Assembly: GCA_037576195.1 (NCBI GenBank)
Contig: CM075101.1
Location: forward strand, 47,120,001 to 47,184,000
Reading direction: 5' to 3'
Source of the DNA: Phytoseiulus persimilis
Taxonomy: Eukaryota > Arthropoda > Arachnida > Mesostigmata > Phytoseiidae
Length of the DNA: 64,000 bases
Within the stretch, counting starts at the first letter, position 1; each line of letters starts with the position of its first letter. A model generated the notes under the pieces. The model was not told where the DNA came from. It saw only the letters and a program-made list of their open reading frames with translations, and did no database searches. Positions 28,075-64,000 of the stretch are shown in pieces. The translations under genes and the position numbers were made by a program.

Positions 28075-28278
28075 CTCTCCTGACAGAGTCAGAAAAAGGT
28101 AGAACCGGATCGTGGAGTTCTGAATTGTACAAAAGCGGCAACGAAATTAAGTCCCTGGGCTTCAGAGCTTCCTTATTCATGGCGAATCTCAGCACGACTC
28201 CCAGGGTTAGACATGAATGGCTCTGTACGAATTCGAGAAATGCGGAAATCAATGACAGCAATCATGTTGGCGGTTCCA

Positions 28279-31200
28279 TCGGCTTCGTCTGTAAGTTTGT
28301 CAGTTTGTCTGTTTGCCCGCACTTTTTCTGGAACACATGGGGATGGTTCCGGGACCAATCTGACCATACTGTCCCGAGTCTGGAGAGGTGATTCCGGTAC
28401 GAGTCTGATTATACATTTTGAAAGCTGGAGGGGTGATTCCGGTACGAGTCTGATTATACATTTTGAAAGCTGGAGGGGTGATTCTGGAACCGATCTGATC
28501 ATACCTTCCAGAACGAGGAGGGGTGATTCCGAGACCAATCTGAGCATTACTTCCCAACTCTGGAGGGGTGATTTCGAGACCGATCTGAGCATTACTTCCC
28601 AACTCTGGAGGGGTGATTCCGGGCTCAATCTGAGCATTACTTCCCAACTCTGGAGGGGTGATTTCGAGACCGATCTGGGCATTACTTCCCAACTCTGGAG
28701 GGGTGATTCCGGGCTCAATCTGAGCATTACTTCCCAACTCTGGAGGGGTGATTCCGGGCTCAATCTGAGCATTACTTCCCAACTCTGGAGGGGTGATTCC
28801 GGGCTCAATCTGAGCATTACTTCCCAACTCTGGAGGGGTGATTCCGGACTCAATCTGAGCATTACTTCCCAACTCTGGAGGGGTGATTCCGAGACCAATC
28901 TGGGCATTACTTCCCAACTCTGGAGGGGTGATTCCGGGGTCAATCTGAGCATTACTTCCCAACTCTGGAGGGGTGATTCCGAGACCAATCTGAGCATTAC
29001 TTTCCAACTCTGGAGGGGGTGATTTCGAGACCGATCTGAGCATTACTTCCCAACTCTGGAGGGGTGATTCCGGGCTCAATCTGAGCATTACTTCCCAACT
29101 CTGGAGGGGTGATTCCGAGACCAATCTGAGCATTACTTCCCAACTCTGGAGGGGTGATTTCGAGACCGATCTGAGCATTACTTCCCAACTCTGGAGGGGT
29201 GATTTCGAGACCAATCTGAGCATTACTTTCCAACTCTGGAGGGGTGATTCCGAGACCGATCTGAGCATTACTTCCCAACTCTGGAGGGGTGATTTCGAGA
29301 CCGATCTGAGCATTACTTTCCAACTCTGGAGGGGTGATTTCGAGACCGATCTGAGCATTACTTCCCAACTCTGGAGGGGTGATTTCGAGACCGATCTGAG
29401 CATTACTTCCCAACTCTGGAGGGGTGATTCCGAGACCAATCTGAGCATTACTTCCCAACTCTGGAGGGGTGATTCCGAGACCAATCTGGGCATTACTTCC
29501 CAACTCTGGAGGGGTGATTCCGGGGTCAATCTGAGCATTACTTCCCAACTCTGGAGGGGTGATTCCGAGACCAATCTGGGCATTACTTCCCAACTCTGGA
29601 GGGGTGATTCCGGGGTCAATCTGAGCATTACTTCCCAACTCTGGAGGGGTGATTCCGAGACCAATCTGAGCATTACTTCCCAACTCTGGAGGGGTGATTC
29701 CGGGGTCAATCTGAGCATTACTTCCCAACTCTGGAGGGGTGATTCCGAGATCAATCTGAGCATTACTTTCCAACTCTGGAGGGGTGATTTCGAGACCGAT
29801 CTGAGCATTACTTCCCAACTCTGGAGGGGTGATTCCGGGCTCAATCTGAGCATTACTTCCCAACTCTGGAGGGGTGATTCCGAGACCAATCTGAGCATTA
29901 CTTCCCAACTCTGGAGGGGTGATTTCGAGACCGATCTGAGCATTACTTCCCAACTCTGGAGGGGTGATTCCGGGGTCAATCTGAGCATTACTTTCCAACT
30001 CTGGAAAGGTGATTCCGGGCTCAATCTGAGCATTACTTTCCAACTCTGGGGGGGTGATTCCGAGACCAATCTGAGCATTACTTTCCAACTCTGGAGGGGT
30101 GATTCCGGGGTCAGTCTGAGCATTACTTCCCAACTCTGGAGGGGTGATTCCGAGACCAATCTGAGCATTACTTTCCAACTCTGGAGGGGTGATTCCGAGA
30201 CCAATCTGAGCATTACTTTCCAACTCTGGAGGGGTGATTCCGAGACCAATCTGAGCATCACTTCCCAACTCTGGAGGGGTGATTCCGAGACCAGTCTGAG
30301 CATTACTTCCCAACTCTGGAGGGGTGATTCCGAGACCAATCTGAGCATTACTTCCCAACTCTGGAGGGGTGATTCCGGGGTCAGTCTGAGCATTACTTTC
30401 CAACTCTGGAGGGGTGATTCCGAGACCAATCTGAGCATTACTTCCCAACTCTGGAGGGGTGATTCCGAGACCAATCTGAGCATTACTTCCCAACTCTGGA
30501 GGGGTGATTCCGAGACCAATCTGAGCATTACTTCCCAACTCTGGAGGGGTGATTCCGAGACCAATCTGAGCATTACTTCCCAACTCTGGAGGGGTGATTC
30601 CGGGCTCAATCTGAGCATTACTTTCCGACTCTGGAGGGGTGATTCCGAGACCAATCTGGGCATTTCTTTCCAACTCTGGAGGGGTGATTCCGGGCTCAAT
30701 CTGAGCATTACTTTCCAACTCTGGAGGGGTGATTCCGGGGTCAGTCTGAGCATTACTTTCCAACTCTGGAGGGATGATTCCGAGACCAATCTGGGCATTT
30801 CTTTCCAACTCTGGAGGGGTGATTCCGGGCTCAATCTGAGCATTACTTCCCAACTCTGGAGGGGTGATTCCGAGACCAATCTGGGCATTTCTTTCCAACT
30901 CTGGAGGGGTGATTTCGAGACCAATCTGAGCATTACTTCCCAACTCTGGAGGGGTGATTCCGGGGTCAATCTGAGCATTACTTCCCAACTCTGGAGGGGT
31001 GATTTCGAGACCGATCTGAGCATTACTTCCCAACTCTGGAGGGGTGATTCCGGGGTCAATCTGAGCATTACTTTCCAACTCTGGAAAGGTGATTCCGGGC
31101 TCAATCTGAGCATTACTTTCCAACTCTGGGGGGGTGATTCCGAGACCAATCTGAGCATTACTTTCCAACTCTGGAGGGGTGATTCCGGGGTCAGTCTGAG

Positions 31201-31454
31201 CATTACTTTCCAACTCTGGGGGGGTGATTCCGAGACCAATCTGAGCATTACTTTCCAACTCTGGAGGGGTGATTCCGGGGTCAGTCTGAGCATTACTTTC
31301 CAACCCTAGAGGGGTGATTCCGAGACCAATCTGACCATACTTTTCAAAGTTGGAATGCTGACCCAGTGAAGGGAGAGAAAAGTGCCTCGATGGCAGGGAG
31401 CGCCGTCCAAGCGCGCGCAGCGCGGCCGACTCCAGTCGGCCAAAGGCCGGCTGG
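28279..31454 (+). mobile_element. Minisatellite-bearing non-autonomous Helitron-like element 1
   Basis: Starts A|TCGGCTTCGTCTGT (28278/28279) and ends with an 8-bp-arm hairpin GGCCGACT-CC-AGTCGGCC (31424-31441), nine bases, then CTGG|T (31451-31454/31455). TC at the 5' end, hairpin plus CTRR at the 3' end, insertion between A and T, and no inverted repeats or target duplication are the Helitron signature. The interior is a head of CAGTTTGTC repeats, a 45-bp array, and a conserved tail of about 105 bp. There is no Rep/helicase, so it would need a helper. The class is inferred from the ends. Confidence 0.65.
28345..31340. repeat. 45-bp minisatellite array 1 (about 65 units)
   Basis: Tandem 45-base units containing CAACTCTGGAGGGGTGATTC and CAATCTGAGCATTACTT. 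Variants fall mostly at fixed positions (GAGACC, GGGCTC or GGGGTC; CCC or TTC before CAACTC). Some stretches alternate two variants, giving a 90-bp higher order (about 29500-29720). A variant block with GGAAAGG and GGGGGGG units recurs at 29990-30120, 31070-31210 and 33870-34080. Because 45 is a multiple of 3, three of the six frames stay open for hundreds of codons. Confidence 0.98.
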
Positions 31455-32365
31455 TCCCTAATAATTGGGGCTGCGCATCTTTGTCGCGATCAAGAAACGC
31501 GAATATCGCGGGCACGGGCCTACCAGCTTTTTTTGGGGGGTGAGGGGGGAGGGGGTTAAACTGAGTGGATCACTCGAGAATCGTGACGGGTGATGAGATC
31601 GCGTGAATACCGCAACAAACTTGATCGAAAATGAGTACATGGTGTAACGATGGAGAAACAGACTATTTTCTTAGTTTGAACAGAGCATGACCACCTTACA
31701 ATGCTGAAGAGGTCCTATCACATCCTGAAAATGTTTCCACCTCAGACGATGAAGACGGATTCGGCTTGGAATAGGACAACGTAGATTTGCGTTGAACTTG
31801 ATTTGGATCCAAGCTCTGGAGCGTATCGGCGTTACGATGAAGCTTGCTGTAGACGGCTGAATTTGGCTCAGCGATGCTACGGCGGCCATTCCTCAATACT
31901 TTCGAGTACATGCTGAAATACCGCTCCGCGGTAACAATCCCGAGAGAAACGCTGCGGCAAATTAGAGCTATGTGGGACAGTTCAGGGAAGCGTTGGTCTG
32001 AGGCAAGCCAGGAGCCCACGGCGCGACTGAAGCTATTGAAGCTTTGATCGAGTTCAAAAACATTCTGAGCTCCGCCCTCGCCAAGTTGTTTTCGTCGAAC
32101 CAGGAAATAATCTCAAAGACTACCTCAGGATCTACTGCAGTGATTCCAATGTCTCGGTTATCGAGGTCATTGCCGGAAACGACAGAGATCGTGATGTTCT
32201 TTCAGCCCGCTCATAATTCAGCCCAACCGATGGAATGTCCCCGAACGCTCTGTTTCTCGAGGGCGAGTTGCTCAGCTGGCCTCTGGCACTTGAGATCATT
32301 GAAGCATATGCTGGAAGACTTCGGATAGGCGAATAATTATTATTATTATCCTTTACTATATATAA
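31455..32365. repeat. Spacer between Helitron-like elements 1 and 2, first copy
   Basis: This 911-bp spacer recurs without visible differences at 34252-35162. No coding gene is recognised. Near its right end (32262-32345), the words CAGCTGGC and CACTTGAGATCATTGAA also occur at about 52520-52595, so part of it is itself a dispersed repeat. Confidence 0.9.
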
Positions 32366-34251
32366 TCGGCTTAGTCTGTCAGTTTGTCAGTCTGTCAGTT
32401 TGTCAGTCTGTCAGTTTGTCCGCACTTTTTCTGAAAGACATGAAGGTGATTCTGGGACCAATCTGCACATACTCTCCCGAGTCTGGAGAGGTGATTCCGG
32501 TACGAGTCTGACTATACTTTTCAGAAGCTGGAGGGGTGATTCTAGAACCAATCTGACCATACTTTTCAAAACGTGGAGGGGTGATTCTAGAACCAATCTG
32601 ACCATACTTTTCAAAACGTGGAGGGGTGATTCCGGAACCGATCTGACCATTACTTTTCAAGTCTGGAGGGGTGATTGCGAGACCAATCTGAGCATTACTT
32701 CCCAACTCTGGAGGGGTGATTTCGAGACCAATCTGAGCATTACTTTCCAACTCTGGAGGGGTGATTTCGAGACCAATCTGAGCATTACTTCCCAACTCTG
32801 GAGGGGTGATTTCGAGACCAATCTGAGCATCACTTTCCAACTCTGGAGGGGTGATTCCGAGACCAATCTGACCATTACTTTCCAACTCTGGAGAGGTGAT
32901 TCCGAGACCAATCTGAGCATTACTCCCCAACTCCGGAGGGGTGATTCCGAGACCAATCTGAGAATTACTTTTCAAGTCTGGAGGGGTGATTCCGAGACCA
33001 ATCTGAGCATTACTTTCCAACTCTGGAGGGGTGATTCCGAGACCAATCTGAGCATTACTTCCCAACTCCGGAGGGGTAGTTCCGAGACCAGTCTGAGCAT
33101 TACTTCCCAACTCCGGAGGGGTGATTCCGAGACCAATCTGAGCATTACTTCCCAACTCTGGAGGGGTGATTCCGAGACCAATCTGAGCATTACTTCCCAA
33201 CTCCGGAGGGGTGATTCCGGGGTCAATCTGAGCATTACTTCCCAACTCTGGAGGGGTGATTTCGAGACCAATCTGAGCATTACTTTCCAACTCTGGAGGG
33301 GTGATTCCGAGACCAATCTGACCATTACTTTCCAACTCTGGAGAGGTGATTCCGAGACCAATCTGAGCATTACTTCCCAACTCCGGAGGGGTGATTCCTA
33401 GACCAATCTGAGAATTACTTTTCGAGTCTGGAGGGGTGATTCCGAGACCAATCTGACCATTACTTCCCAACTCCGGAGGGGTGATTCCGGGGTCAATCTG
33501 AGCATTTCTTTCCAACTCCGGAGGGGTGATTCCGGGGTCAATCTGAGCAGTACTTTCCAACTCTGGAGGGGTGATTCCGAGACCCATCTGAGCATTACTT
33601 CCCAACTCTGGAGGGGTGATTCCTGGCTCAATCCGAGCATTACTTCCCAACTCTGGAGGGGTGATTCCGGGCTCAATCTGAGCATTACTTCCCAACTCTG
33701 GAGGGGTGATTCCGAGACCAATCTGAGCATTACTTCCCAACTCTGGAGGGGTGATTCCGGGGTCAATCTGAGCATTACTTCCCAACTCTGGAGGGGTGAT
33801 TTCGAGACCGATCTGAGCATTACTTCCCAACTCTGGAGGGGTGATTCCGGGGTCAATCTGAGCATTACTTTCCAACTCTGGAAAGGTGATTCCGGGCTCA
33901 ATCTGAGCATTACTTTCCAACTCTGGGGGGGTGATTCCGAGACCAATCTGAGCATTACTTTCCAACTCTGGAGGGGTGATTCCGGGGTCAGTCTGAGCAT
34001 TACTTTCCAACTCTGGGGGGGTGATTCCCAGACCAATCTGAGCATTACTTTCCAACTCTGGAGGGGTGATTCCGGGGTCAGTCTGAGCATTACTTTCCAA
34101 CCCTAGAGGGGTGATTCCGAGACCAATCTGACCATACTTTTCAAAGTTGGAATGCTGACCCAGTGAAGGGAGAGAAAAGTGCCTCGATGGCAGGGAGCGC
34201 CGTCCAAGCGCGCGCAGCGCGGCCGACTCCAGTCGGCCAAAGGCCGGCTGG
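32366..34251 (+). mobile_element. Minisatellite-bearing Helitron-like element 2
   Basis: Same architecture as element 1: A|TCGGCTTAGTCTGT start (32365/32366), CAGT/TTGTC head, a 45-bp array at about 32450-34140 (about 37 units), the conserved tail, hairpin and CTGG|T end (34248-34251/34252). The right part of the array matches element 1 and the left part matches element 3, with a constant 2797-bp offset, as expected after a tandem duplication. Confidence 0.65.
32450..34140. repeat. 45-bp minisatellite array 2
   Basis: About 37 units of the same 45-base repeat as array 1. The first units are diverged (TTTTCAAAACGTGG and TTTTCAGAAGCTGG in place of TTCCCAACTCTGG), a pattern kept at the head of array 3 and, in reverse orientation, near 54.2 and 57.5 kb. 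Confidence 0.97.
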
Positions 34252-35162
34252 TCCCTAATAATTGGGGCTGCGCATCTTTGTCGCGATCAAGAAACGCGAA
34301 TATCGCGGGCACGGGCCTACCAGCTTTTTTTGGGGGGTGAGGGGGGAGGGGGTTAAACTGAGTGGATCACTCGAGAATCGTGACGGGTGATGAGATCGCG
34401 TGAATACCGCAACAAACTTGATCGAAAATGAGTACATGGTGTAACGATGGAGAAACAGACTATTTTCTTAGTTTGAACAGAGCATGACCACCTTACAATG
34501 CTGAAGAGGTCCTATCACATCCTGAAAATGTTTCCACCTCAGACGATGAAGACGGATTCGGCTTGGAATAGGACAACGTAGATTTGCGTTGAACTTGATT
34601 TGGATCCAAGCTCTGGAGCGTATCGGCGTTACGATGAAGCTTGCTGTAGACGGCTGAATTTGGCTCAGCGATGCTACGGCGGCCATTCCTCAATACTTTC
34701 GAGTACATGCTGAAATACCGCTCCGCGGTAACAATCCCGAGAGAAACGCTGCGGCAAATTAGAGCTATGTGGGACAGTTCAGGGAAGCGTTGGTCTGAGG
34801 CAAGCCAGGAGCCCACGGCGCGACTGAAGCTATTGAAGCTTTGATCGAGTTCAAAAACATTCTGAGCTCCGCCCTCGCCAAGTTGTTTTCGTCGAACCAG
34901 GAAATAATCTCAAAGACTACCTCAGGATCTACTGCAGTGATTCCAATGTCTCGGTTATCGAGGTCATTGCCGGAAACGACAGAGATCGTGATGTTCTTTC
35001 AGCCCGCTCATAATTCAGCCCAACCGATGGAATGTCCCCGAACGCTCTGTTTCTCGAGGGCGAGTTGCTCAGCTGGCCTCTGGCACTTGAGATCATTGAA
35101 GCATATGCTGGAAGACTTCGGATAGGCGAATAATTATTATTATTATCCTTTACTATATATAA
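34252..35162. repeat. Spacer between Helitron-like elements 2 and 3, second copy
   Basis: Second copy of the 911-bp spacer at 31455-32365, 2797 bp away. The duplicated tract also extends into the arrays on both sides (about 30.95-33.72 kb with about 33.75-36.52 kb). Confidence 0.9.
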
Positions 35163-36688
35163 TCGGCTTAGTCTGTCAGTTTGTCAGTCTGTCAGTTTGT
35201 CAGTCTGTCAGTTTGTCCGCACTTTTTCTGAAAGACATGAAGGTGATTCTGGGACCAATCTGCACATACTCTCCCGAGTCTGGAGAGGTGATTCCGGTAC
35301 GAGTCTGACTATACTTTTCAGAAGCTGGAGGGGTGATTCTAGAACCAATCTGACCATACTTTTCAAAACGTGGAGGGGTGATTCTAGAACCAATCTGACC
35401 ATACTTTTCAAAACGTGGAGGGGTGATTCCGGAACCGATCTGACCATTACTTTTCAAGTCTGGAGGGGTGATTGCGAGACCAATCTGAGCATTACTTCCC
35501 AACTCTGGAGGGGTGATTTCGAGACCAATCTGAGCATTACTTTCCAACTCTGGAGGGGTGATTTCGAGACCAATCTGAGCATTACTTCCCAACTCTGGAG
35601 GGGTGATTTCGAGACCAATCTGAGCATCACTTTCCAACTCTGGAGGGGTGATTCCGAGACCAATCTGACCATTACTTTCCAACTCTGGAGAGGTGATTCC
35701 GAGACCAATCTGAGCATTACTCCCCAACTCCGGAGGGGTGATTCCGAGACCAATCTGAGAATTACTTTTCAAGTCTGGAGGGGTGATTCCGAGACCAATC
35801 TGAGCATTACTTTCCAACTCTGGAGGGGTGATTCCGAGACCAATCTGAGCATTACTTCCCAACTCCGGAGGGGTAGTTCCGAGACCAGTCTGAGCATTAC
35901 TTCCCAACTCCGGAGGGGTGATTCCGAGACCAATCTGAGCATTACTTCCCAACTCTGGAGGGGTGATTCCGAGACCAATCTGAGCATTACTTCCCAACTC
36001 CGGAGGGGTGATTCCGGGGTCAATCTGAGCATTACTTCCCAACTCTGGAGGGGTGATTTCGAGACCAATCTGAGCATTACTTTCCAACTCTGGAGGGGTG
36101 ATTCCGAGACCAATCTGACCATTACTTTCCAACTCTGGAGAGGTGATTCCGAGACCAATCTGAGCATTACTTCCCAACTCCGGAGGGGTGATTCCTAGAC
36201 CAATCTGAGAATTACTTTTCGAGTCTGGAGGGGTGATTCCGAGACCAATCTGACCATTACTTCCCAACTCCGGAGGGGTGATTCCGGGGTCAATCTGAGC
36301 ATTTCTTTCCAACTCCGGAGGGGTGATTCCGGGGTCAATCTGAGCAGTACTTTCCAACTCTGGAGGGGTGATTCCGAGACCCATCTGAGCATTACTTCCC
36401 AACTCTGGAGGGGTGATTCCTGGCTCAATCCGAGCATTACTTCCCAACTCTGGAGGGGTGATTCCGGGCTCAATCTGAGCATTACTTCCCAACTCTGGAG
36501 GGGTGATTCCGAGACCAATCTGAGCATTACTTTCCAACTCTGGAGGGGTGATTCCGAGACCAATCTGACAATATATTTCAAAATCAGAATGCTAAACCAG
36601 TGAAGGGAGAGAAAAGTGCCTCGATGGCAGAGAGCGCCGTCCAACCGCGCGCAGCGCGGCCGACTCCAGTCGGCCAAAGGCCGGCTGG
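35163..36688 (+). mobile_element. Minisatellite-bearing Helitron-like element 3
   Basis: A|TC start at 35162/35163 and CTGG|T end at 36685-36688/36689, with the same hairpin. Its 45-bp array (about 35247-36575) is identical to that of element 2 for its first 1.3 kb, then leaves through a diverged last unit and tail (AATCAGAATGCTAAACC in place of AGTTGGAATGCTGACCC). The 5' flank of the second RRM gene copy begins directly at the 3' end, with a TATAAAT only 5 bases further on. Confidence 0.65.
35247..36575. repeat. 45-bp minisatellite array 3
   Basis: About 29 units. An open stretch of 333 codons on the plus strand is identical to that of array 2, so this part was duplicated recently or is a duplicated assembly segment. 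Confidence 0.97.
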
Positions 36689-36693
36689 TTCAC

Positions 36694-36700
36694 TATAAAT
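36694..36700 (+). promoter_or_regulatory. TATA box of RRM gene copy 2
   Basis: TATAAAT followed by GAGGAAGCTC, 109 bases upstream of the ATG. The same TATAAATGAGGAAGCTC context is present at 45329-45345, next to the remnant 5' end of another copy. In copy 1 the corresponding position reads GAATAAGGAAGC, so its TATA box is degraded. Function is inferred. Confidence 0.5.
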
Positions 36701-36808
36701 GAGGAAGCTCCGGTGCGTTGGAATCACTTCCGTTGCTTGTTCTGTGAGACTCAGAATTCCACGATCCGGTTCTCACTTTTCTGACTCAGTCGGAAGAAAA
36801 ACGTAGAG

Positions 36809-37443
36809 ATGGACTGTCGCAAGCAAACCCTGTTCATCAACTCCTTCGCGGCATGGGCAACCAATGTAAGTAGAGTTCTACCCTGTGAAGAGATCCGAAG
36901 CTATAGAACATACCCTCCCTCGTCAGACACTGCGTTTAAGATAGAAGAAGATTGATTCGAACCGTCTTTTCCCCAGGGCGACATCCTGAAATTCCTGCAC
37001 CCGTTCAAACCGATGAGCATACGCTTGCTCAACAAGAAGGATGATCCTCGGAGGTCTCGTCGAGTCGCGTAAGTACTGGTTGCTTGAGCAGCCCAAGTCA
37101 CTTCATGCGCAGTTTGAGCAGTTTGAGTTTGAGGCACAGGCGACTTGTTGTACCACAGGAGCCTCGACTGACACGATTGTTGGGCATCTGGACTCCCAGT
37201 AATCGATGTAGTTTTCCGTCGCTTCCACGCTTCGCAGGAGTTCCAACGATTAGCTCATTCTTCCAATTCCAGGTTCTTGAACTTCGCGGACGAAGCGACA
37301 ATCAAGGCCGTGATCGCCCAGAAAGACGACACGCATTTCATGGGCGGATTCATGAGGGTGAAAACGGCCACCTCCAATCGCCATTCCGCCTCCAATCGCC
37401 CTGCCCAAGAGAATGGCGGCAACGACACGAGCCGAAACCAACC
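36809..37443 (+). pseudogene. RRM-Tudor family copy 2, cut by a LINE
   Basis: Exons 36809-36865, 36977-37068 and 37273-37443 match copy 1's first three exons in length of the first two, phase and residues: start MDCRKQT, RNP2-like LFINSF, and RNP1-like RRVAFLNF across the splice. The third exon is longer than in copy 1 by an inserted Asn/Arg-rich stretch and has a good GTGAGT donor. The following intron is interrupted at about 37524 by a LINE, so the 3' exons, including any Tudor domain, are not continuous with it. This is a 5' partial gene. Confidence 0.7.
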
Positions 37444-37523: not shown

Positions 37524-40500
37524 TCGCACAGTAGTTATCATCGTCCTGGTGCTCTTTGTGTGTGGCTTGAGGACGAAGCAACCTAGCCGACAGGAAGTGG
37601 ACATGCCTATGGAAGCCTGGGAAGGTCCAAGTGATGACGAAGCAGAACAATAGAAGTAGACGGCTGCGCTTGAAAAAGATGTGCTTATCGACATGAAAGT
37701 AGACATAATGATGGTATGCGAAACGCGTCTTATGAATGACGAGAAAGCACCACCCATTGAGGGATACAACATAGTATCCAGCAACTGGCGAAGCTCGGCT
37801 CGTTGGCCGTGTGGCATAAACCAACGCCTTAGGTGCCACGCTAAGCTAGCAATCGCGGGTTCGATCCCCGGCCGACAACAAAAATTTCTTATGTGGTAAA
37901 AAGAGGATTTAATTTGTATCAGAATTAAATCTGAACCATCTTAAGACCCAAGCCCACCGCTCGCAATGGGATTTGCGAGGCGATAGGGAGTGTTACCGAA
38001 GCAATACCGAAAGGTGAACCCAGGACACTTCTGAGGGCTGGCTGAGAGGTTCAGCCGGAAAACAGAGAAAACAAAGACAAAAAGCAACCGGCGAGGCCCG
38101 ACTGGGAAAAACTCGAATGGTGGCGTAGCTATCCTATACAGGGAAAACTATGTCGAAGACTGGAACCACAGAGGCAATGACTTCATTGCCCAAGCAACGT
38201 GGATTGGCAGACAACGATGGATATTCATATCCTTCTATATGAAACATGGAACAGTAAGGGAAAACAAAACCCTCACCAGATACATGAGCACACACATAAA
38301 GCAAAAGCGCTCGCCGCTAGATAAGATTATCATAGGTGGTGACGCCTATGCGCAGATCCCCTGCCTCGATGGAAAATCAAGCAAAAGAGGACGGATCCTT
38401 GAAGAGTTTTCCATCGAGAACGGACTCACTATACTAAACATGACTGAGCGATGCGAAGGCAAATTCACGAGGGGAGTCAGCGATAGACTACTTTCTTTTG
38501 AACGGAACGGCGCTGAGTCAGATAGACTCCATGACCATCGACGAAGACAGGATCATAGCAAGTTCGCGAGGAAGTGCAGGGAGTAATAAAGCAACGTGAC
38601 CACCAAATATGCCTGGATATCCTCAAAGCACCCAAAAAAAACAGAGTCAAAAGGCTGTGGCAGTTCCTTAGTCGAAGTAAGGACACTGGACGCCCGTCTG
38701 GCACCAGGATCAAAGACCGAAATGGTCTCCTGATTCCAGACGACGGCTTGACAGCTCACCTTACTGGCGTAGGAATTGAGTTGCTGGAAGCAAGCAATAC
38801 CAACGACCAGAAAGACTCGTGGCGAGGAAGCAGAGATCCCACAGGAATCGTTACAGACCCAGAAGAGGTCAAGAGAGCGATGAGTACCATCCAAGACCGC
38901 ACAGGGTGTGGCCTCGATGGAATCCCTGCGAAAGTCTTGAAAAACCTGAAGAATGAAGGTGTAAGGCAAATCACCGAACTATTCAACAAAATGTTTTCCG
39001 GAGCCGAAGACATACCAGAGGACTGGAAACAGGGAAGAGTGTCGCTCATAGAAAAAGGAAACTCTGAAAAAGGACACCTGAACACATACCGACCGATCAC
39101 CATCACCCAGTCCTGTACAGACTATTCACCAAGATCTTCCTCGAAGATCCAAGAGTGGATCGAGAATGAACAGATCCTGGGGGAGATGCAGAACGGCTTT
39201 AGACCAGGTAGGCGTGGAGACGATAACATCTTCATACTTACTTCCGCCTCGGAGATCGCCAGGGAAAACAAGCAAGGAATGATAGCCTGCTTCCTGGGCT
39301 GCTCCCGAGCCTTCGACAGAATAGACCGCGAAGAACTGTTGAAGATTCTACGCAGACTCGGAACGGAACCCAGCTGGGTCGACCTACTGACACGCATATA
39401 CGAGAACAACAAAGTCAAAATTGTTCACGGCGAGGTCAGCTCAGACTGACTATGCTCTCACAGAGGTGTGAAACAAGGCTGCCCCTTGAGCAGCATCCTG
39501 TTCATACTACGCATAACAGAGCTTGAGAAACGACTGATTGAAAGTAAGCGCAGACTTTAAGTCAGGCGGAGAGGAGACTTTTGGAACACTCGGGAACCGA
39601 AACACTTCGTGCTACCCGGGTTGTTCTTTGCGGATGACATAGTGCCACTCGCACACAACCGCAAGGATCTACAAGAGCTTCTTATCATCACCTCGGCATT
39701 CAGAAGGGTTAGAAGATTGACCTTCAACCCCCTAAGAAGTGCAGTGGTTGTGTTCTCAAACCACTCGGTTGGCGATTGCGACGACCTCCAGATACAAGGC
39801 AAAGCCCTACCTGTCAGCCGAGAGTACACATATCTAGGGATCACCCTGAGTGACGACTCCAACTACCTCTCCAAGCAAGAAGAGAAATGGAAGACGGATG
39901 CGAAGAAAGTCCTTCACCAGATGCACGCCCAGACACTATGGGGATTCAACAAGTTTGAAATGTCCAAAACATTCTGGAAAGGCGTCGCTGTCGCGAAAAT
40001 CACATACGCAGATGCTGTTTTCCGTAAAGACAACTAACACAGTGAACGAAGTGGAGAAAGCCGAGCGCGACGCAGCGCGATGGGCACTTGGTATACCAGG
40101 ATGGAAGGTGGCGAACGAATACCTTTCATCAGAGCTGAGCTGGAGCTCCTCCGAAGCTAGGGAAGCCAAAAGTAAGCTCAGGTATTTCGCGAGGATCCGC
40201 TCAATGCCGGACTCGAGATGGCCCAAAATGCTACTCGATGCAGTTGAGCTACAAAAAAACAAAACGAAAGCCTACCTAAGAATGGGACTTCTCCGAACCG
40301 ACTTCGATTGTGACGCACTGACGATCGACCACGACCACGAAAACCGAGCACTCCTTGGAGTCTACTACCGGAAGCTATCCGAAAAAGTTGAGACCATACA
40401 GGATAAAGCCTGGGAGGACGGGATTGAAAAGAGGTCCACTCTCGAGCTGTACCGAGCCCACAATGAGTCAAGGACCACAACCACCCACATATATGAAAAT

Positions 40501-40845
40501 AGTAGAGGATCCTCCCTGCTAGCCCTAGCGAGAGCTGGAACCCTCCCAACAAAATGTCACAATACCATCTTCCAAGCTGCCCCAGACACATTCTGCGACC
40601 GATGTGGAGTTCACCCCGAAACAACCGCACACGTGATCTTCGGATGCAATGAATTCTACTACACCAACGAAGACCTCGCAGCTCGCCTCGGCCCAAGCAG
40701 CGAGCTGAATCATTCATTGGTAAACAAGACTAAGCGACTTCTCGAAGAATGGGAACGCAACAAGAAAGGATCCGCTGAGCATGCTCGCGCCTGAATTGAA
40801 AGGTTGATTCATAAATACAAAAAATCAGATCCAATAAACCATGAA
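37524..40845 (+). mobile_element. APE-type non-LTR retrotransposon (LINE), copy L1
   Basis: A 3' complete, 5' truncated LINE. It opens with a 43-codon tail of an upstream reading frame (hydrophobic VVIIVLVLFVCGL, then acidic, ending DDEAEQ). Then come endonuclease pieces (VDIMMVCETRL, GGVAILYR, KIIIGGDAYAQ), reverse transcriptase (CGLDGIPAKVLK, NTYRPITITQ, NGFRPGRRGDDN, GVKQGCPLSS, FFADDIV, YTYLGITLSDD) and a C-terminal CCHC knuckle (C-x2-C-x8-H-x4-C) at about 40.6 kb. It ends GATCCAATAAACCATGAA. It is inactive: a SINE splits the endonuclease, TGA replaces Trp at about 39447, and a shared TAA/frameshift follows at about 39558. Probably jockey/CR1-like; the clade is not determined. Confidence 0.9.
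37793..38082 (+). mobile_element. tRNA-derived SINE inserted in LINE L1
   Basis: The tRNA-like head has a box A (TGGCCGTGTGG, 37804-37814) and box B (GGTTCGATCCC, 37858-37868). Unrelated sequence follows (TTCTTATGTGGTAAAAAGAG, then TGCGAGGCGATAGG), ending in an A-rich tail. It is flanked by direct repeats AGCAACTGGCGA (37780-37791) and AGCAACCGGCGA (38083-38094). Removing it restores the endonuclease reading from YNIVSSN to GGVAILYR. Confidence 0.88.
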
Positions 40846-42050
40846 CCGATGAGCATACGTTTGCTCAACAAGAAGGATGATCCTCGGAGGTCTCGTCTAG
40901 TTGCGTAAGTACCGGTTGCTTGAGCAGCCCAAATCACTTCATGCTCCCAAACGCAGTTCGAGTTCGAGGCACAGGCGACTTGTTGTACCACAGGAGCCTC
41001 GATTGACACGCTTGTTGGGCATCTGGACTTCCAGTAATCGATGTAGTTTTCCGTCGCTTCCACGCTTCGCAGGTGTTCCAACGATTAGCTCATTCTTCCA
41101 ATTCCAGGTTCGTGAACTTCGCGGACGAAGCGACAATCAAGGCCGTGATCGCCCAGAAAGACGACACGCATTTCATGGGCGAATTCATGAGGGTGAAAAC
41201 GGGCACCCCCAATCGCCATTTCACCTCCAATCGCCCTGCCCAAGAGAATGGCGGCAACGACAAGAGCCGAAACCAACCGGGTACCATATCTCCCAAGTCA
41301 TGAATGCTCTCAGTTCGAGTTTGATGCAGAGTCGAGCGGGAATGTTCTCCCAGACAAAGTCGGATGTTTCAAATCTGCTTTCCTTACAGACCATCGAATG
41401 GATTCCTCAGGAAGCCTGTCGAGTAAAAACGATCGACAGAAGCGCCAGGAGAAACCCGTAAAGGGACGTTCCAAATCGTCGCGTTGGGTCACGGGAACCA
41501 ATTAGTGGCCTTAGAAACGGGCTGGCGGGCGGATCAGAGGAAGCTCGCTGATGACCTCCAGGAATACGCGGACTTTATCGCCTGCGGCGTGGACGAGATG
41601 GAGCCAGAGGTCGTCTACGCCTGCAAAGACGGCGTCACCCCAACCTGGCAGCGGTGTCGCAAGATAAGCGAGACCGGAGGCGTCGTCTCCGTGGAACTGA
41701 TTGACCAGGGTCGGCAGCGAACGGTCCGGAAAGACGAGGTGCTAGAGCTCTCGTCTCTCTACAAGTGCTGGACCGTCAAAGCTGTCGATCTGGATATCGT
41801 TGGCTTCGAGGTCGCCTCGACTTCTATGGGAAGCTTGGAGGCTCATGTTCTCGAGAAGACATACGACCTCTCCTATGAATGTCAGCGGAGGGGTCTCTGA
41901 TGAGGGACCGCCTCAGAGTTTCAGAAATGAAACTTAACGGCAGGTCCGTTCTGGACGATCTGGTGGCGGTGGGAATCCTGCTCAGGAAATAAGTTCAGGA
42001 TTCATATTTGTAGCGTTATAGCTCTGATAGCTTTCAGAATAAATTTCGGT
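40846..42050 (+). pseudogene. RRM-Tudor family copy 3 (5' truncated)
   Basis: Begins in the middle of exon 2 (PMSIRLLNKKDD), directly after the LINE end. The GTAAGT donor at 40905 and the acceptor before 41108 are kept, and the RRM strand FVNFADEATIKAV follows. The intron after exon 3 has lost its donor by a 27-bp deletion. Exon 4 starts after CCTTACAG (about 41390) and runs in one frame, broken by a TAA after FLRKPVE, into a Tudor-like region that is open from the TAA to 41900. That region holds EVVYACKDG, VVSVELIDQG, RTVRKDEVLEL. AATAAA lies at 42040-42045. Tudor domains bind methylated arginine or lysine and are typical of germline RNA-granule proteins. The Tudor call rests on the V-x-V-x-hydrophobic-IDxG pattern and predicted strand order only. 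Confidence 0.65.
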
Positions 42051-42703
42051 TACGTCAGAAACATCGATGATTTCTTTGTTCCAACATCTGGAAGTGTGCC
42101 CGCTGTCTTCCTAGGTCAAGCTTGGAGATGAGCATCCATAAGCTAGAGATCACATCAAGGAGGGAACACGTGATTGGGAGGAATGCGTCGTTGCCGCTCT
42201 CTCAGAACGCGTCGCTCGACGGCGTTCGCGAAACTCTGGGATCCGGCTCAAGATCGAGCATCTCCCCCGGAAGCCGTTGGACTATCGCCGCTCCTGGAGC
42301 TGTGCCCCCTCCAGTCTCCGGCCCACTCAATTTTGTGGGGAGCCGTTCCGAGATTGAGGACGAGTCATCCGGTATTCTATGCAAACGACAACCCCGGTTC
42401 AGTTTCACCAGCATTGGAGTGTTTCCATGAGAAGTGTAGTTACTATAACGAGGCCTCGGAATCATTCGTAAACTTGTGATCTTTTGGATCTAAGTACCTC
42501 AAATTCCTGGTGCTTTTCCTGAGTCTAGCAGCAATGCTCGAGGGGTCGACTGAATGGTAACCCATCAGGAAAAATTTCTGTAACCGCCTGAATGCTCGCC
42601 TCTCGTCGGATTTCGCTCAGCGCTTTATGTCGGCGTAGGCTTACGCTCTCTGGCAAAAGAGTAGCACGCATCCGAGAGAGGGCTGGAACGGAGGTCGAGT
42701 GAA
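42051..42703. repeat. Flank shared with 50334-50983
   Basis: Sequence 3' of the RRM-Tudor copy, repeated with few changes after copy 4. Readable frames exist, but none is recognised. Its right end (about 42600-42703, KRVARIRERAGTEVE) may be the start of the R1-like LINE body that follows only here. Confidence 0.8.
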
Positions 42704-44895: not shown

Positions 44896-45328
44896 GATGA
44901 GAATGCGGTTTCAATGAACTTCTCTCCATTACTTAAGTGGATCTGGATTCTCATGTCCGGATTCGGTCAACACTCAATGGGTGAGCGTCCAACGATTTTC
45001 ACGATGAAGTGCTCGGCGGCTGTATAGATCCTCCTCGAGAGAACCCTCCACAAGAGCGTTCTCTTGAGGGTAGCTCAGAGGGGGGCTGATGGATTTCGAG
45101 CGGAGCATTTCAGCAAGGGGTTCGAGAAAACCGAGTTGTTTGTTCGTAACCTCAACTTTGATAGCCCTCGGTGAGAAGCCCCTCTTAGCTTCTGTCGGTC
45201 CGCGCCGCTGACGCAGGTGAATCAAGAGGAGTGGGAGAGGAACGAAACAATTTGGAATTCTTCGGATTACTGCAGAGCCGAGATCTCTCTCTCTCTCTCT
45301 TTCTCCTAGAACTCGAGCTCAGATCCGC
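44896..45328. other. Unassigned sequence upstream of a gene 5' remnant
   Basis: No gene seen. It contains an imperfect 12-bp-arm hairpin (CCTCGAGAGAAC / GTTCTCTTGAGG, about 45033-45069) and a (CT)n tract near 45287-45305. Confidence 0.4.
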
Positions 45329-45452
45329 TATAAATGAGGAAGCTCTGGTGCGTTGGAATCACTCTCGTTGCCTTTTCTGTACGATTCAGAACTTCACGAT
45401 CCGGTTCTCACTTTTCTGACTCAGTCAGAAGAAAAGCGAAGAGAAGGCCGTT
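45329..45452 (+). pseudogene. 5' UTR remnant of an RRM-Tudor family copy
   Basis: TATAAATGAGGAAGCTC and the following about 110 bases match the leader of copies 1 and 2 (CACGATCCGGTTCTCAC, TTTTCTGACTCAGTC). The match stops at AGAGAAGG, just before where the ATG should be, and unrelated sequence follows. Only promoter and leader survive. Confidence 0.75.
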
Positions 45453-45790: not shown

Positions 45791-46059
45791 TCGCACAGTA
45801 GTTATCATCGTCCTGGTGCTCTTTGTGTGTTGCTTGAGGAAGAAGCAACCTAGCCGACAGGAATTGGACATGCCTATGGAAGCCTGGGAAGGTCCAAGTG
45901 ATGACGAAGCAGAACAATAGAAGTAGAGGGCTGCGCTTGAAAAAGATGTGCTTATCGACATGAACGTAGACATAATGATGGTATGCGAAACGGTTCTTAT
46001 GAATGACGAGAAAGCACCACCCATTGAGGGATACAACATAGTATCCAGCAACCGGCGAA

Positions 46060-46349
46060 GCTCGGCTCGTTGGCCGTGTGGCATAAACCAACGCCTTAGG
46101 TGCCACGCTAAGCTAGCAATCGCGGGTTCGATCCCCGGCCGACAACAAAAATTTCTTATGTGGTAAAAAGAGGATTTAATTTGTATCAGAATTAAATCTG
46201 AACCATCTTAAGACCCAAGCCCACCGCTCGCAATGGGATTTGCGAGGCGATAGGGAGTGTTACCGAAGCAATACCGAAAGGTGAACCCAGGACACTTCTG
46301 AGGGCTGGCTGAGAGGTTCAGCCGGAAAACAGAGAAAACAAAGACAAAA
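46060..46349 (+). mobile_element. tRNA-derived SINE inserted in LINE L2
   Basis: Same insertion as in L1, with AGCAACCGGCGA on both sides (46048-46059 and 46350-46361). The shared position shows that the SINE was in the LINE before the two LINE copies separated. Confidence 0.88.
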
Positions 46350-47921
46350 AGCAACCGGCGAGGCCCGACTGGGAAAAACTCGAATGGTGGCGTAGCTATC
46401 CTATACAGGGAAAACTATGTCGAAGACTGGAACCACAGAGGCAATGACTTCATTGCCCAAGCAACGTGGATTGGCAGACAACGATGGATATTCATATCCT
46501 TCTATATGAAACATGGAACAGTAAGGGAAAACAAAACCCTCACCAGATCCATGAGCACACTCATCAAGCAAAAGTGCTCGCCGCTAGATAAGATTATCAT
46601 AGGTGGTGACGCCAGTGCGCAGATCCCCTGCCTCGATGGAAAATCAAACAAAAGAGGACGGATCCTCGAGGAGTTTTCCATCGAGAACGGACTCACTCAT
46701 GACTGAGCGATGCGAAGGCAAATTCACGAGGGGAGTCAGCGATAGACTACTCTCTTGTGAACGGAGCGGCGCTGAGTCAGATAGACTCCATGACCATCGA
46801 CGAAGACAGGATCATAGCAAGTTCGCGAGGAAGTGCAGAGAGAAATAAAGCAACGTGACCACCAAATATGAGACCAACGACTAGAAAGACCCGTGGCGAG
46901 GAAGCAGAGATCCCACAGGAATCGTTACAGACCCAGAAGAGGTCAAGAGAGCGATGAGTACCATCCAAGACCGCACAGGGTGTGGCCTCGATGGAATCCC
47001 TGCGAAAGTCTTGAAAAACCTGAAGAATGAAGGTGTAAGGCAAATCACCGACTATTCAACAAAATGTTTTCCGGAGCCGAAGACATACCAGAGGACTGGA
47101 AACATAGGGAAGAGTGTCGCTCATAGAAAAAGGAAACTCTAAAAAGGGACACCTGAACACATACCGACCGATCACCATCACCCAGTCCTGTACGGACTAT
47201 TCACCAAGATCGTCTCAAAGATCCAAGAGTGGATCGAGAATGAACAGATCCTGGGGGAGATGCAGAACGGCTTTAGACCAGGTAGGCGTGGAGACGATAA
47301 CATCTTCATACTTACTTCCGCCTCAGAGATCGCCAGGGAAAACTCGCAAGGAATGCAAGGAATGATAGCCTGCTTCCTGGGCTGCTCCCGAGCCTTCGAC
47401 AGAATTGACCGCGAAGAACTGTGGAAGATTCTACGCAGACTCGGAATGGAACCCAGCTGGGTCGACCTGCTGACAAGCATATACGAGAAAATCAAAGTCA
47501 AAATTGTTCACAGCGAGGTCAGCTCAGACTGGCTATGCTCTCACAGAGGTGTGAAACAAGGCTGCCCCTTGAGCAGCATCCTGTTCACACTATGCATAAC
47601 AGAGCTTGAGAAACGACTGATTGAAAGTAAGCGCGGACTTTAAGTCAGGCGGAGAGGAGACTTTTGGAACACTCGGGAACCGAAACACTTCGTGCTACCC
47701 GGGTTGTTCTTTGCGGATGACATAGTGCTACTCTCACACAACCGCAAGGATCTACAAGAGCTTCTTATCATCACCTCGGCATTCAGAAGGGTCAGAAGAT
47801 TGACCTTCAACCCCCTAAAAAGTGCAGTGGTTGTGTTCTCAAACCACTCGGTTGGCGATTGCGACGACCTCCAGATACAAGGCAAAGCCCTACCTGTCAG
47901 CCGAGAGTACACATATCTAGG

Positions 47922-48117
47922 TGTTAAATATCGTAAGAGCGAACTGCGAATTCATTGCGATTGGAAGCGCGCGCCGCCTCGACGCTCAACCTTTCATAAA
48001 TAAAACGTGCCACATCAAGTGAATGTGTGGGAATCAGTCGAGACCACAGCATCCGTTTTCCTTTGCAAGAAAAAGGGTCTGAAACCGTCAACCCGGAGCG
48101 CGACGGAATTCTCACTA
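47922..48117. other. 196-bp insertion inside LINE L2
   Basis: Separates TACACATATCTAGG from ATCACCCTGAGTGACGACTC, which are contiguous in L1. The insert starts TGTTAAATATCG and ends TTCTCACTATGG. No clear target duplication and no match elsewhere in the window. Confidence 0.7.
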
Positions 48118-52252: not shown

Positions 52253-53995
52253 TGCGCACCGTTTCGAGCCCGGATTTCAACAACCCCGACTGATGGGTTC
52301 CACGTAGTTTTCAGACGATTCCTTGACGCTGGAACGAGGCAGAGAGTCAATTTTTCTTTCCCAGAAAGATCTATCCAGTCGAGGAGCGCTACTCATGGAG
52401 ATCAACGGACGCTTAACCGTCGCAACAGTTCCTCAAGAATGAGTTACTCTCCAAGGTGCAGGGGCTCCCTCCTTTCAGCGCACTGCAGAGAAGCTTAGTT
52501 TCGTACGCTCGGCTCTTCGCTCAGCTGCTCAGCTGGCTTCGGGCACTTGAGATCATTGAATCATGTGTTCGAAGACTTTCGATGAGCGAATAATCAGTAT
52601 GAAGGAGGATAGAAGAAGACAAAGTGAATCAGTATCCATCTTCAACTATGTTGTCGGAACAGGATTCCCCTTTCGGAAGTGTCAGCTCGGCTCATCTCCA
52701 TCGTGAGCTTCCTGCCTCATACGGGTTAGCTCATCGTTCGCTCTTGGAATTTTCCAGCCAAACCTCGGTAGAGGAGCCGGAGCCCTGGAAGAGCCTGATC
52801 AGAGGAGCGGGGGTGGTCGTGGGCTCTGACACACCGTAATCGGGGATGAAGTCGATATCTTTCTGGAGTTTATCCCTCAAAATTTGAGGGGGAATGATTC
52901 GGATTATACTCATGTTAACAATGAATGTAGCCTGACTTTCGACCCTTCTCATGAAGAAATCCCAAGGGTCTGTCACGAACCCCTTCTTCCTTATTCTTTC
53001 TCGAGCAGTAATCAAGCTCCGATCAAGCGGACTCGGACTTCAGTGAGGAGCTCTTCGTTTCAAACATATTTTCTGTTATTCGTTCCGAATTTCAGCAGAA
53101 TTACGACCATGCATGCGATGACACGCATGCAGACTGTCGTTAGAGAAGGTGGGATCTCGGGTTCGAATGTTTGAATTTGATTGGTCCCCGTGTCCCGAAT
53201 ACGGGGATCGATTTGAGCAGGATATCTCTTCAGCGCGGAGCGATCGAATCCGAGTTTTGGGAATCAGAAAAATTATCCTTCTCCAACCCTTTCTTCAAAA
53301 GCGACGGCCGCAGTTCAAGAACGTCAGTCACTGGGGCTCTTATCTCTCCAACAAACTCGCGTTGACGGCCGTCGACTTCCGTCTCATAACGGCGAGAGAC
53401 GCAGTCGCCTTCCTGTACAAAACCGATCTCTACTATGAATTTTTCCTCCGAATCTGCTGGCATGGGGCGCCCTTGGCTCCGGCGCAGGCGAATGAGTCCG
53501 CGGAAATTCCTGTGAAATATCTTCGCCTGCCGTCAAACACGATCGTCTGCGCTTTGCTTTCAGCATTTGACTTCGAAGACTTCAGATGATCCACGAACTC
53601 TCGACTCGAGAATGAGTCATTATCGACAGGTCGTTTCGCAGGCCCACCGGGGAGACTTTCAAGACTTGAATGAAACGCCACGAAGAAAGACGGCATCCGT
53701 CGACTTCCTTGAATGGTAGAAATTTTGACGAGACATGATCCTATTCTCGAAGAAAAATCGGAGTTCCCGCGACCTCCCCTTGCCATTTTAGCGCAGAAAT
53801 GCGCTTTTCTCCGGGCGTGTTTACTGGGGTGTAACTGGGAGTGGAACGAAAAAATGGGAACGAAAAAATCGCAGCGGGAGGCCTTCAAGATTCTTTCCGG
53901 AGCGAGGGGAATTTGAATTCGAGTTGAATTTCATGTGGTGAATCTCCGTGTCTCGTCATAGGTCAATGACAATGAAGTGATGGTAGTTAAAGTAT
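52253..53995. other. Region with a dispersed-repeat fragment and one possible reading frame
   Basis: About 52515-52600 matches the end of the 911-bp spacers (CACTTGAGATCATTGAA, GAATAAT). A 146-codon plus-strand frame at 53149-53589 has protein-like composition, but no family or start context I can support. Nothing else was recognised. Confidence 0.35.
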
Positions 53996-54286
53996 TGTCG
54001 GTCCCGGAATCACCCCTCCAGACTTGAAATGTGAAGGTCAGATTGGTCCCGGAATCACCCCTTCAGACTTGGAAAGTAATGGCCAGATTGGTGCCGGAAT
54101 CACTCCTCCAGACTCAGCAAGATATTGTCATACGCGTCCTGGAATAAACCCACCAGACTCAGAAAAGTATGCTCAAATTGGTTCCGGAATCACTCCTCCG
54201 GACTCAGAAAAGTATGCTCACATTGTTGCCGGAATCACCCCCATGTATTCCAGGAGGAATTCGGACAAACTGACGGACGAAGCCGA
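53996..54286 (-). mobile_element. 5' part of a Helitron-like element, reverse orientation
   Basis: Read on the minus strand, it starts A|TCGGCTTCGTCCGTCAG (54287/54286), the same end as elements 1-3. A GTCCG/CCTGGAATACATGG head and about six diverged 45-bp units follow. No hairpin/CTGG end was found at its left side, so it is 3' truncated. Confidence 0.6.
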
Positions 54287-54384
54287 TCATAAGTAGTGAG
54301 GATCCTCGGATCCAGGGTACGAAGAATTAATTTCTGTACCGGGTGGTACGGAAATTTTATTGCCGTACTACGGAAAATGATGTC

Positions 54385-54545
54385 GAGTCCCGGAATCACC
54401 TCTCCAGACTTGGGAAGTAATGGTCAGATCGGTCCCGGAGTCACCCCTCAGACCTGGGAGAGTGATGGTCAGATCGGTCCCGGAATCACTCCTCCAGACT
54501 TGAAAAGTGAAGGTCGGATTGGTCCCGGAATCGCTCCAAGAAATC
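54385..54545. repeat. Short 45-bp-family array
   Basis: About four units with GGTCCCGGAATCACTCCTCC. Partner at 57716-57921 has one more unit. Confidence 0.85.
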
Positions 54546-55098: not shown

Positions 55099-55100
55099 GG

Positions 55101-55215: not shown

Positions 55216-55235
55216 GGCGGGTTCTACGATGGCCG

Positions 55236-55660
55236 GGACCAATCTGAGCATTACTTTCCAACTCTGGAGGGGCGATTCCGGGACCAATCTGACCATTACT
55301 TTCCAACTCTAGAGGAGTGATTCCGAGACCAATCTGAGCATTACTTTCCAACTCTGGAGGGGTGATTCCGAGACCAATCTGAGCATTACTTTCCAACTCT
55401 GGAGGGGTGATTCCGAGACCAATCTGAGCATTACTTTCCAACTCTGGAGGGGTGATTCCGAGACCAATCTGAGCATTACTTCCCAACTCTGGAGGGGTGA
55501 TTCCGGGACCAATCTGAGCATTACTTTTCAACTCTGGAGGGGTGATTCCGGGACCAATCTGAGCATTACTTTTCAACTCTGGAGGGGTGATTCCGAGACC
55601 AATCTGAGCATTACTTCCCAACTCTGGAGGGGTGATTCCGGGACCAATCTGAGCATTACA
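55236..55660. repeat. 45-bp minisatellite array 5
   Basis: About nine units in the same orientation as array 1, with GAGACC/GGGACC variants. Neither a TC head nor a CTGG tail is present. Confidence 0.95.
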
Positions 55661-55945
55661 TCAGAAACTGGAAGGCGAGCCTCTTTCGGAACTGAATGAG
55701 CGATGGAGATTTTCTAAGCATCGCTCGATCGACTGCTTGGCTTTATTCGGAGTATATGAATACATAAGTGGCATTCGTCTGCTTCCGAATCGGTTGACTG
55801 GAAATCTGTTGTGGGCGACATGTATAGAAGACGAATCGGGGAGCCCAACACCCGTACAACCTGGCGAAAGGGAAAAGAAGGTTACTTTACGGGCACTCCT
55901 CCGAGGAAGTGGGCGATTTCACATTCAGAGAAAAAATACTAACGT

Positions 55946-57355: not shown

Positions 57356-57361
57356 GTCGTG

Positions 57362-57616
57362 TGAAGGTCAGATTGGTCCCGGAATCACCCCTTCAGACTT
57401 GGAAAGTAATGGCCAGATTGGTGCCGGAATCACTCCTCCAGACTCAGCAAGATATTGTCATACGCGTCCTGGAATAAACCCACCAGACTCAGAAAAGTAT
57501 GCTCAAATTGGTTCCGGAATCACTCCTCCGGACTCAGAAAAGTATGCTCAGATTGTTGCCGGAATCACCCCCATGTATTCCAGGAGGAATTCGGACAAAC
57601 TGACGGACGAAGCCGA
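57362..57616 (-). mobile_element. 5' part of a Helitron-like element, reverse orientation, unit 2
   Basis: Second copy of 54031-54286, with the same A|TCGGCTTCGTCCG end at 57617/57616. The block is shifted by 3331 bp here and by 3376 bp after a one-unit expansion of the short array that follows. Confidence 0.6.
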
Positions 57617-62892: not shown

Positions 62893-64000
62893 CCAGCTTA
62901 CAAACTAGCTAGTATCAGGGAATCATCTCTCCAGACTCGAGAAAGTGTTGTCAGATTGGTCTCGGAATCACTCCTCCAGAGTTGGGAAGTAATGCTCAGA
63001 TTGGTCTCGGAATCACTCCTCCAGAGTTGGGAAGTAATGCTCAGATTGGTCTCGGAATCACCCCTCCAGAGTTGGGAAGTAATGCTCAGATCGGTCTCGG
63101 AATCACTCCTCCAGAGTTGGGAAGTAATGCTCAGATTGGTCTCGGAATCACCCCTCCAGAGTTGGGAAGTAATGCTCAGATTGGTCTCGGAATCACTCCT
63201 CCAGAGTTGGGAAGTAATGCTCAGATTGGTCTCGGAATCACCCCTCCAGAGTTGGGAAGTAATGCTCAGATTGGTCTCGGAATCACCCCTCCAGAGTTGG
63301 GAAGTAATGCTCAGATTGGTCTCGGAATCACCCCTCCAGAGTTGGGAAGTAATGCTCAGATTGGTCTCGGAATCACCCCTCCAGAGTTGGGAAGTAATGC
63401 TCAGATTGGTCTCGGAATCACCCCTCCAGAGTTGGGAAGTAATGCTCAGATTGGTCTCAGGAATCACTCCTCCAGAGTTGGGAAGTAATGCTCAGATTGG
63501 TCTCGGAATCACTCCTCCAGAGTTGGGAAGTAATGCTCAGATTGGTCTCGGAATCACTCCTCCAGAGTTGGGAAGTAATGCTCAGATTGGTCTCGGAATC
63601 ACCCCTCCAGAGTTGGGAAGTAATGCTCAGATTGGTCTCGGAATCACCCCTCCAGAGTTGGGAAGTAATGCTCAGATTGGTCTCGGAATCACTCCTCCAG
63701 AGTTGGGAAGTAATGCTCAGATTGGTCTCGGAATCACTCCTCCAGAGTTGGGAAGTAATGCTCAGATTGGTCTCGGAATCACTCCTCCAGAGTTGGGAAG
63801 TAATGCTCAGATTGGTCTCGGAATCACTCCTCCAGAGTTGGGAAGTAATGCTCAGATTGGTCTCGGAATCACTCCTCCAGAGTTGGGAAGTAATGCTCAG
63901 ATTGGTCTCGGAATCACTCCTCCAGAGTTGGGAAGTAATGCTCAGATTGGTCTCGGAATCACTCCTCCAGAGTTGGGAAGTAATGCTCAGATTGGTCTCG
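62893..64000 (-). mobile_element. 45-bp array 7 with a possible Helitron-type 3' end (runs off the window)
   Basis: About 23 very uniform units in the orientation opposite to array 1. Variation is almost limited to CACTCCT versus CACCCCT, with one inserted base at about 63460. Read on the minus strand, the left edge reads ACTAGCTAGT, seven bases, then CTGG|T (62896-62893/62892). This is hairpin-like plus CTRR, but with a short loopless palindrome and a sequence different from elements 1-3. The array is certain; the Helitron assignment is weak. Confidence 0.55.

Follow-up and report, generated by a model that had tools for sequence, protein, structure and literature searches.

The question raised by this locus is whether tandem arrays of a 45-bp unit are the bodies of a mobile element or an ordinary minisatellite. 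The arrays are clustered between positions 28279 and 36688 of a 64,000-nucleotide stretch of the Phytoseiulus persimilis genome (assembly GCA_037576195.1, contig CM075101.1, positions 47,120,001 to 47,184,000, forward strand; hereafter the window). A sequence-only reading of the window had described three Helitron-like elements at this site, each built on the minisatellite. The observation was confirmed, and the interpretation was partly supported: two of the elements, E1 and E3, probably represent two insertion events, each by a member of a non-autonomous Helitron family with a body of 45-bp minisatellite. The features on which this rests are as follows.

28279..31454, plus strand: E1, a complete Helitron-like element of about 66 units of 45 bp, judged from its ends and the profile count of units
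28279..28339, plus strand: 5' end of E1, TCGGCTT followed by a short leader of the GTCTGTAAGTTTGTCAG type
31424..31454, plus strand: 3' end of E1, an 18-nt palindrome, 9 nt and CTGG; in the alternative fold, a terminal hairpin that extends to the final base
31455..32365, no strand assigned: spacer, first copy, 911 bp
32366..34251, plus strand: E2, a recombinant element with the head of E3 up to about 33713-33735 and then the tail of E1; 38 units
34252..35162, no strand assigned: spacer, second copy, 911 bp, 100% identical to the first
35163..36688, plus strand: E3, a complete Helitron-like element of 30 units
53990..54286, minus strand: R54, the 5' part of a third element with an A|TCGGCTT end; no 3' end was found
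57368..57616, minus strand: R57, a segmental-duplication copy of R54

E1, E2 and E3 all begin A|TCGGCTT and all finish with GGCCGACTCCAGTCGGCCAAAGGCCGGCTGG|T, as had been claimed. The 5' pattern TCGGCTTNGTCTGTNAG was matched exactly at 28279, 32366 and 35163 on the plus strand and with one mismatch at 54270-54286 and 57600-57616 on the minus strand; two further matches, at 41347 and 49629, carried three mismatches each. When up to three mismatches were allowed, seven matches were obtained in the window against 2.05 expected, a number reached in one of 100 shuffles. The 3' 31-mer matched exactly three times (ends at 31454, 34251 and 36688) and not once in 100 shuffles. Profile matches to the 45-bp unit numbered 66 in E1, 38 in E2 and 30 in E3, close to the 65, 37 and 29 proposed earlier; the value for E1 is the sum of two runs (1 + 65) separated by a weak unit that was left unscored.

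At the 3' terminus, the 18-nt palindrome sits 9 nt before CTGG, its end lying 13 bases from the last base of the element. An alternative terminal hairpin, CCAGTCGGCC-AAA-GGCCGGCTGG, uses one arm of this palindrome; taken alone, it yielded -9.7 kcal/mol, compared with -7.3 kcal/mol for the palindrome, and it was also contained in the minimum-energy fold of both 3' ends (E1 and E3). The last 69 bases of E3 folded better than all 200 shuffles, while the result for the E1 3' end was less clear, with 18 of 200 shuffles folding equally well or better. Because the palindrome and the stronger hairpin at 31424-31454 have one arm in common, the terminator could switch between two folds.

The three elements do not represent three independent observations. 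At an offset of 2797 bp, one mismatch in 2820 bp was found between the stretch from the E1 tail through the spacer to the E2 head and the stretch from the E2 tail through the second spacer to the E3 head. This match takes in the E1 tail (30916-31454), the 911-bp spacer and the E2 head (32366-33735). To its left, within 30000-30900, mismatches climbed to 4-13 per 100 bp, and to its right to 81 per 100. The E2 head carried no mismatch to the E3 head in 1370 bp (32366-33735), and the E2 tail carried one mismatch to the E1 tail in 539 bp. Since a single mismatch occurs in 2820 bp and mismatches rise on both sides, E2 consists of an E3 head and an E1 tail, the exchange point being located within 33713-33735 (23 bp). 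Three independent insertions were ruled out on this basis. The make-up of E2 and the duplicated spacer, in the block order E1-spacer-E2-spacer-E3, are the expected outcome of a single unequal exchange involving the E3 and E1 arrays.

As E2 is a recombinant, two full elements and one 5' fragment (R54) are left. Two reverse 5' ends had been reported at 54.3 and 57.6 kb; both are present, but a tandem segmental duplication (54030-57362 against 57360-61653, in three pieces) has copied a single end, which makes R57 a copy of R54. The argument that constant ends around an array of variable length indicate a mobile element was likewise weakened: the ends are constant, but one of the three lengths, that of E2, arose in place by unequal crossing-over.

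After removal of copies, the comparison included three separate 5' ends and two separate 3' ends. The first 18 bases were identical at 16 of 18 positions in each pair of 5' ends, and the 40-bp flanks of the same pairs had 16, 7 and 12 of 40 bases in common. The last 31 bases were identical between the two 3' ends, and identity dropped to 21/40 in the 40 bp outside. The base before the 5' end was A in all three cases, and the base after the 3' end was T in both. No direct repeats of 1-10 bp were found flanking E1, E3 or the whole block, in agreement with the expectation of no target duplication. E1 and E3 have diverged head units in common; they differ in their leaders and units; a 16-bp AGTCTGTCAGTTTGTC repeat is present in the leaders of E2 and E3. 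The layout of the family is TC...(GTCT/GTCA microsatellite) leader, 45-bp array and hairpin-CTGG tail.

The target was approached through three paralogous gene copies in the window.

28076..28278, minus strand: upstream region of gene copy A, a divergent paralogue, forming the left flank of E1
36689..36809, plus strand: promoter start and first-exon region in gene copy B, which aligns with A and C from this T onward
45313..45444, plus strand: gene copy C, a paralogous site without the element

Gene copies A (minus strand), B (plus strand) and C (45.3 kb) are paralogues, and the promoter of B is the right flank of E3. In a three-way alignment, B, taken from the T after CTGG, aligned from its first base, and A and C extended together upstream; the junctions read ...GCTGAGA|TTCGCC in A and ...GCTCAGA|TCCGCT in C, and the alignment of B begins T|TCA. 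Across the 20 bases leading up to the common point, eight of which lie on the gene side of the B junction, A and C had 15 bases in common, B and C nine, and B and A eight. The alignment supports a one-sided empty site, which would back the 3' boundary of E3 and an A|T target. A candidate empty site at 52.5 kb was rejected, the 72-bp relative of the spacer there diverging about 25 bp before the E3 5' end.

In the general Helitron model, a Rep/helicase nicks the TC end, peels off a strand up to the hairpin-CTGG terminator and inserts it between A and T. The TC start, the palindrome 9 nt before CTGG, the A|T flanks, the lack of duplication and the one-sided empty site together support Helitron-type ends, and the Helitron signature in an A/T site recognized by the sequence-only reading was thus upheld.

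Several results weigh against E1 and E3 being separate Helitron insertions. The likeness of A and C upstream of the E3 junction was moderate and was reached, as a free local alignment, in 22 of 500 shuffles; the left flank of E3, that is, the spacer, showed no match above shuffles to the upstream region of A or C. A full empty site was not found, as three joined-flank queries produced no match spanning a junction within the window, and the empty-site check proposed earlier gave only a one-sided site, at the E3 3' end. When the 40 bp that follow the E1 3' end, at the start of the spacer (31455-31494), were compared with those that follow the E3 3' end, at the promoter start of copy B (36689), 21 of 40 bases agreed, a level attained at none of 10000 background places of the window; with the promoter start of copy C (45324), 22 of 40 agreed. 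For the 5' flanks of E1 and E3, agreement was 16 of 40, a level attained at 272 of the 10000 places. Judging from these flanks, the 3' ends of E1 and E3 may be partly dependent on each other, reflecting either an old common target or a preference for TATA-like targets, and the case for two separate insertions is less secure than it first looked. The CTGG boundary itself is upheld, since the element ends agree at all 31 bases and the flanks at about half of 40. An assembly artefact could in principle be the source of the identical 2.8-kb repeat. No Rep/helicase domain was present in the 50 open reading frames (ORFs) scanned among 121 in the window (at least 110 aa, outside the arrays); the Pfam scan returned reverse-transcriptase, hAT and host-type gene fragments. 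Lastly, no Helitron end was found in three of six distinct tracts of the 45-bp unit, one of them cut by the window edge. These tracts are listed below.

54403..54535, minus strand: end-less 45-bp tract, with a duplicate at 57733-57910
55233..55661, plus strand: end-less 45-bp tract, with a duplicate at 58609-59951 that is broken by an insertion
62931..64000, minus strand: 45-bp tract without a 3' Helitron end, its other side lying beyond the window edge

With duplicates and E2 collapsed, both ends were present in two of the six distinct tracts and the 5' end only in one. Six flanks, five of the end-less tracts and one on the 3' side of R54, showed no likeness to the element ends above shuffles. 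Within the window, the 45-bp minisatellite is more widespread than the element. The earlier description of the array as the element body holds for E1 and E3, but the array is not confined to them.

The end-less tracts favor the alternative that retains most weight, although it is still unlikely: an ordinary dispersed 45-bp minisatellite expanded inside or beside Helitron ends, which would host the repeat at times but would not carry it. The units of these tracts are also very close to those of the elements. Relative to the E1 consensus, zero of 45 positions differed in E3 and one of 45 in each of the end-less tracts compared, those at 55233, 58609 and 62931; this comparison was based on an anchored pattern, so that units without the anchor were dropped and anchored columns were unable to vary. 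A dispersed minisatellite is opposed by the occurrence of the same ends, identically oriented with respect to the units, on both full tracts and on that of R54, as well as by the diverged head units common to E1 and E3.

E1, the spacer and E3 could also have transposed together as a single compound Helitron, with replication that began at the E1 5' end, passed the E1 hairpin and the 911-bp spacer, and ended at the E3 terminator. The outer flanks, CCA|T...CTGG|TTCA, are also compatible with an A|T insertion, and the spacer that borders E3 on its left is unlike the upstream regions of A and C, as expected if the spacer had travelled. This was considered improbable: the leaders and units of E1 and E3 differ, so that two older elements would be required anyway, and the joined compound empty site was not found in the window.

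Even less credit was given to a single insertion beside a promoter of the gene family, copied by an old segmental duplication to give both E1 and E3. The similarity of the bases following the two 3' ends, and that between the spacer and the promoter of copy C, would fit such an origin. Equal divergence of ends and flanks would then be expected, whereas the flanks fall well short of the identical ends, the likeness of spacer and promoter is gone after about 60 bp, and a 300-bp gapped local alignment was not above shuffles. The 5' flanks differ as well.

A similarly low probability was assigned to the idea that one minisatellite is a common cargo, or a foldback-type terminus, of the Helitron and hAT classes and was spread by both, as the sequence might suggest. 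A hAT transposase gene on the minus strand (about 62174-60240, with one in-frame stop and a Pfam match only in 60240-61247) lies between inverted 45-bp arrays, the plus-strand tract ending at 59951 and the minus-strand tract starting from 62931. As inverted repeats, segments 58609-59541 and 62978-63911 show 95% identity over about 930 bp. Around the hAT gene at 60-62 kb, non-array inverted repeats were limited to four weak pairs with no clear terminus. The minus-strand ORF of the spacer (31699-32112) gave a weak hAT C-terminal match of 20.1 bits, below the 21.4 cut-off, and its kinship with the hAT ORF at 56-57 kb was not visible (BLASTP E 0.65).

That the arrays encode a 15-residue repeat protein was rejected as very improbable. 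Reading frames as long as 1001 codons cross E1, but a 45-bp unit holds a whole number of codons, which accounts for the long frames and for three being open simultaneously. The frames are interrupted by an insertion of 1 bp near 29015. The third codon position was the most variable in none of the three stop-free frames (anchored columns being fixed by the unit collection), and by this pattern the unit does not look coding.

Other observations concern the surroundings of the arrays. At the tandem-duplication junction (57350-57370), a hAT open reading frame is joined directly to a 45-bp unit. GC-rich 20-bp repeats (GTACCCGGTTCCAGACCCGG) at 55126-55207 and 58502-58582 form an inverted repeat beside 45-bp tracts. 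A 278-bp element inside a 45-bp array (59539-59816) is bounded by the direct repeat ACTTTTCAACTCT, has 95% matches at 37791-38068 and 46058-46335, and looks like a retrotransposed insertion; no tRNA genes were reported in the window by ARAGORN. A large segmental duplication, 37524-42701 against 45791-50982, is 96-99% identical in three pieces and contains reverse-transcriptase fragments and paralogous gene exons. Viral contigs, as well as bacterial and archaeal genomes, were scanned for exact matches and yielded none.

In comparison with known systems, canonical Helitrons begin with 5' TC, carry a palindrome near a 3' CTRR and insert between A and T without duplication, according to PMC4067079. 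E1 and E3 resemble canonical non-autonomous animal Helitrons, as outlined there, in the TC start, the palindrome near CTRR, the A|T target and the lack of duplication. The canonical palindrome of 16-20 nt about 11 bp from the 3' end has its counterpart in the 18-nt palindrome 13 bases from the terminus, and the TC start, CTRR end and A|T insertion without duplication were all found in E1 and E3. In contrast to these elements, the body of E1 and E3 is almost wholly a 45-bp array.

Tandem repeats inside such elements have precedents. PMC4067079 also describes HINE families with tandem repeats in some copies, including HINE-Mo of the predatory mite Metaseiulus occidentalis. For the Pacific oyster Cg_HINE, PMC7492417 gives microsatellites of the GTCY-like type and, in the centre, arrays whose units measure 140-180 bp, with at most 29 monomers per cluster, compared with a 45-bp unit and up to about 66 copies here. 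HINE and DINE-1 elements (non-autonomous Helentrons), as described in these papers, are like E1 and E3 in the GTCY-like microsatellite of the left module, the central array of fixed orientation, the 3' palindrome and the lack of target duplication. A left-module microsatellite (the 16-bp leader repeat) and central tandem repeats (the 45-bp arrays) were accordingly found. E1 and E3 differ in lacking subterminal inverted repeats of 12-15 bp, in A|T rather than T|T flanks and in the CTGG end. Between the first 30 and the last 100 bases, the longest exact inverted match was 5 bp in both E1 and E3, not above shuffles. Membership in HINE/Helentron was ruled out by this lack and by the A|T flanks.

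Short satellites are also reported inside the C. elegans Helitrons Helitron1_CE and HelitronY in PMC9918286. Like those of E1 and E3, their arrays have short units (15-35 nt) and variable length; the C. elegans satellites adjoin conserved regions and, in complete copies, also a transposase gene, whereas E1 and E3 consist of ends and array only. The excerpt of PMC6902594 names Helitrons only in bulk, and PMC7492417 reports a proposal that Helentrons carrying repeats have a general role in satellite expansion. The E1/E3 family was not found in titles and abstract openings of the open-access papers listed, Repbase being outside this scope. Helitron-like elements with internal tandem arrays are already known in animals, and E1/E3 looks like a new example and not a new kind. 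In sequence terms, these elements would combine canonical Helitron ends with a HINE-like body.

If E1 and E3 are non-autonomous Helitrons, a Rep/helicase supplied in trans and encoded elsewhere would most likely nick the element at its TC end. The strand would be peeled off up to the hairpin-CTGG terminator and then placed between A and T, with replication presumably by rolling circle. After insertion, neighbouring arrays would recombine, and a misaligned chromatid exchange between E3 and E1 would give E2 and the duplicated spacer. Array length would be altered mainly by unequal exchange, perhaps also by replication slippage, and not by transposition. The end-less tracts would be eroded, truncated or escaped arrays.

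The locus can be regarded as a snapshot of minisatellites and rolling-circle transposons possibly feeding each other. Insertions would bring arrays close together, and the arrays would then recombine and duplicate the intervening DNA. As the exchange point is known to 23 bp, array-mediated segmental duplication is directly testable here, and the E1/E3 family would be one more case of a known pattern.

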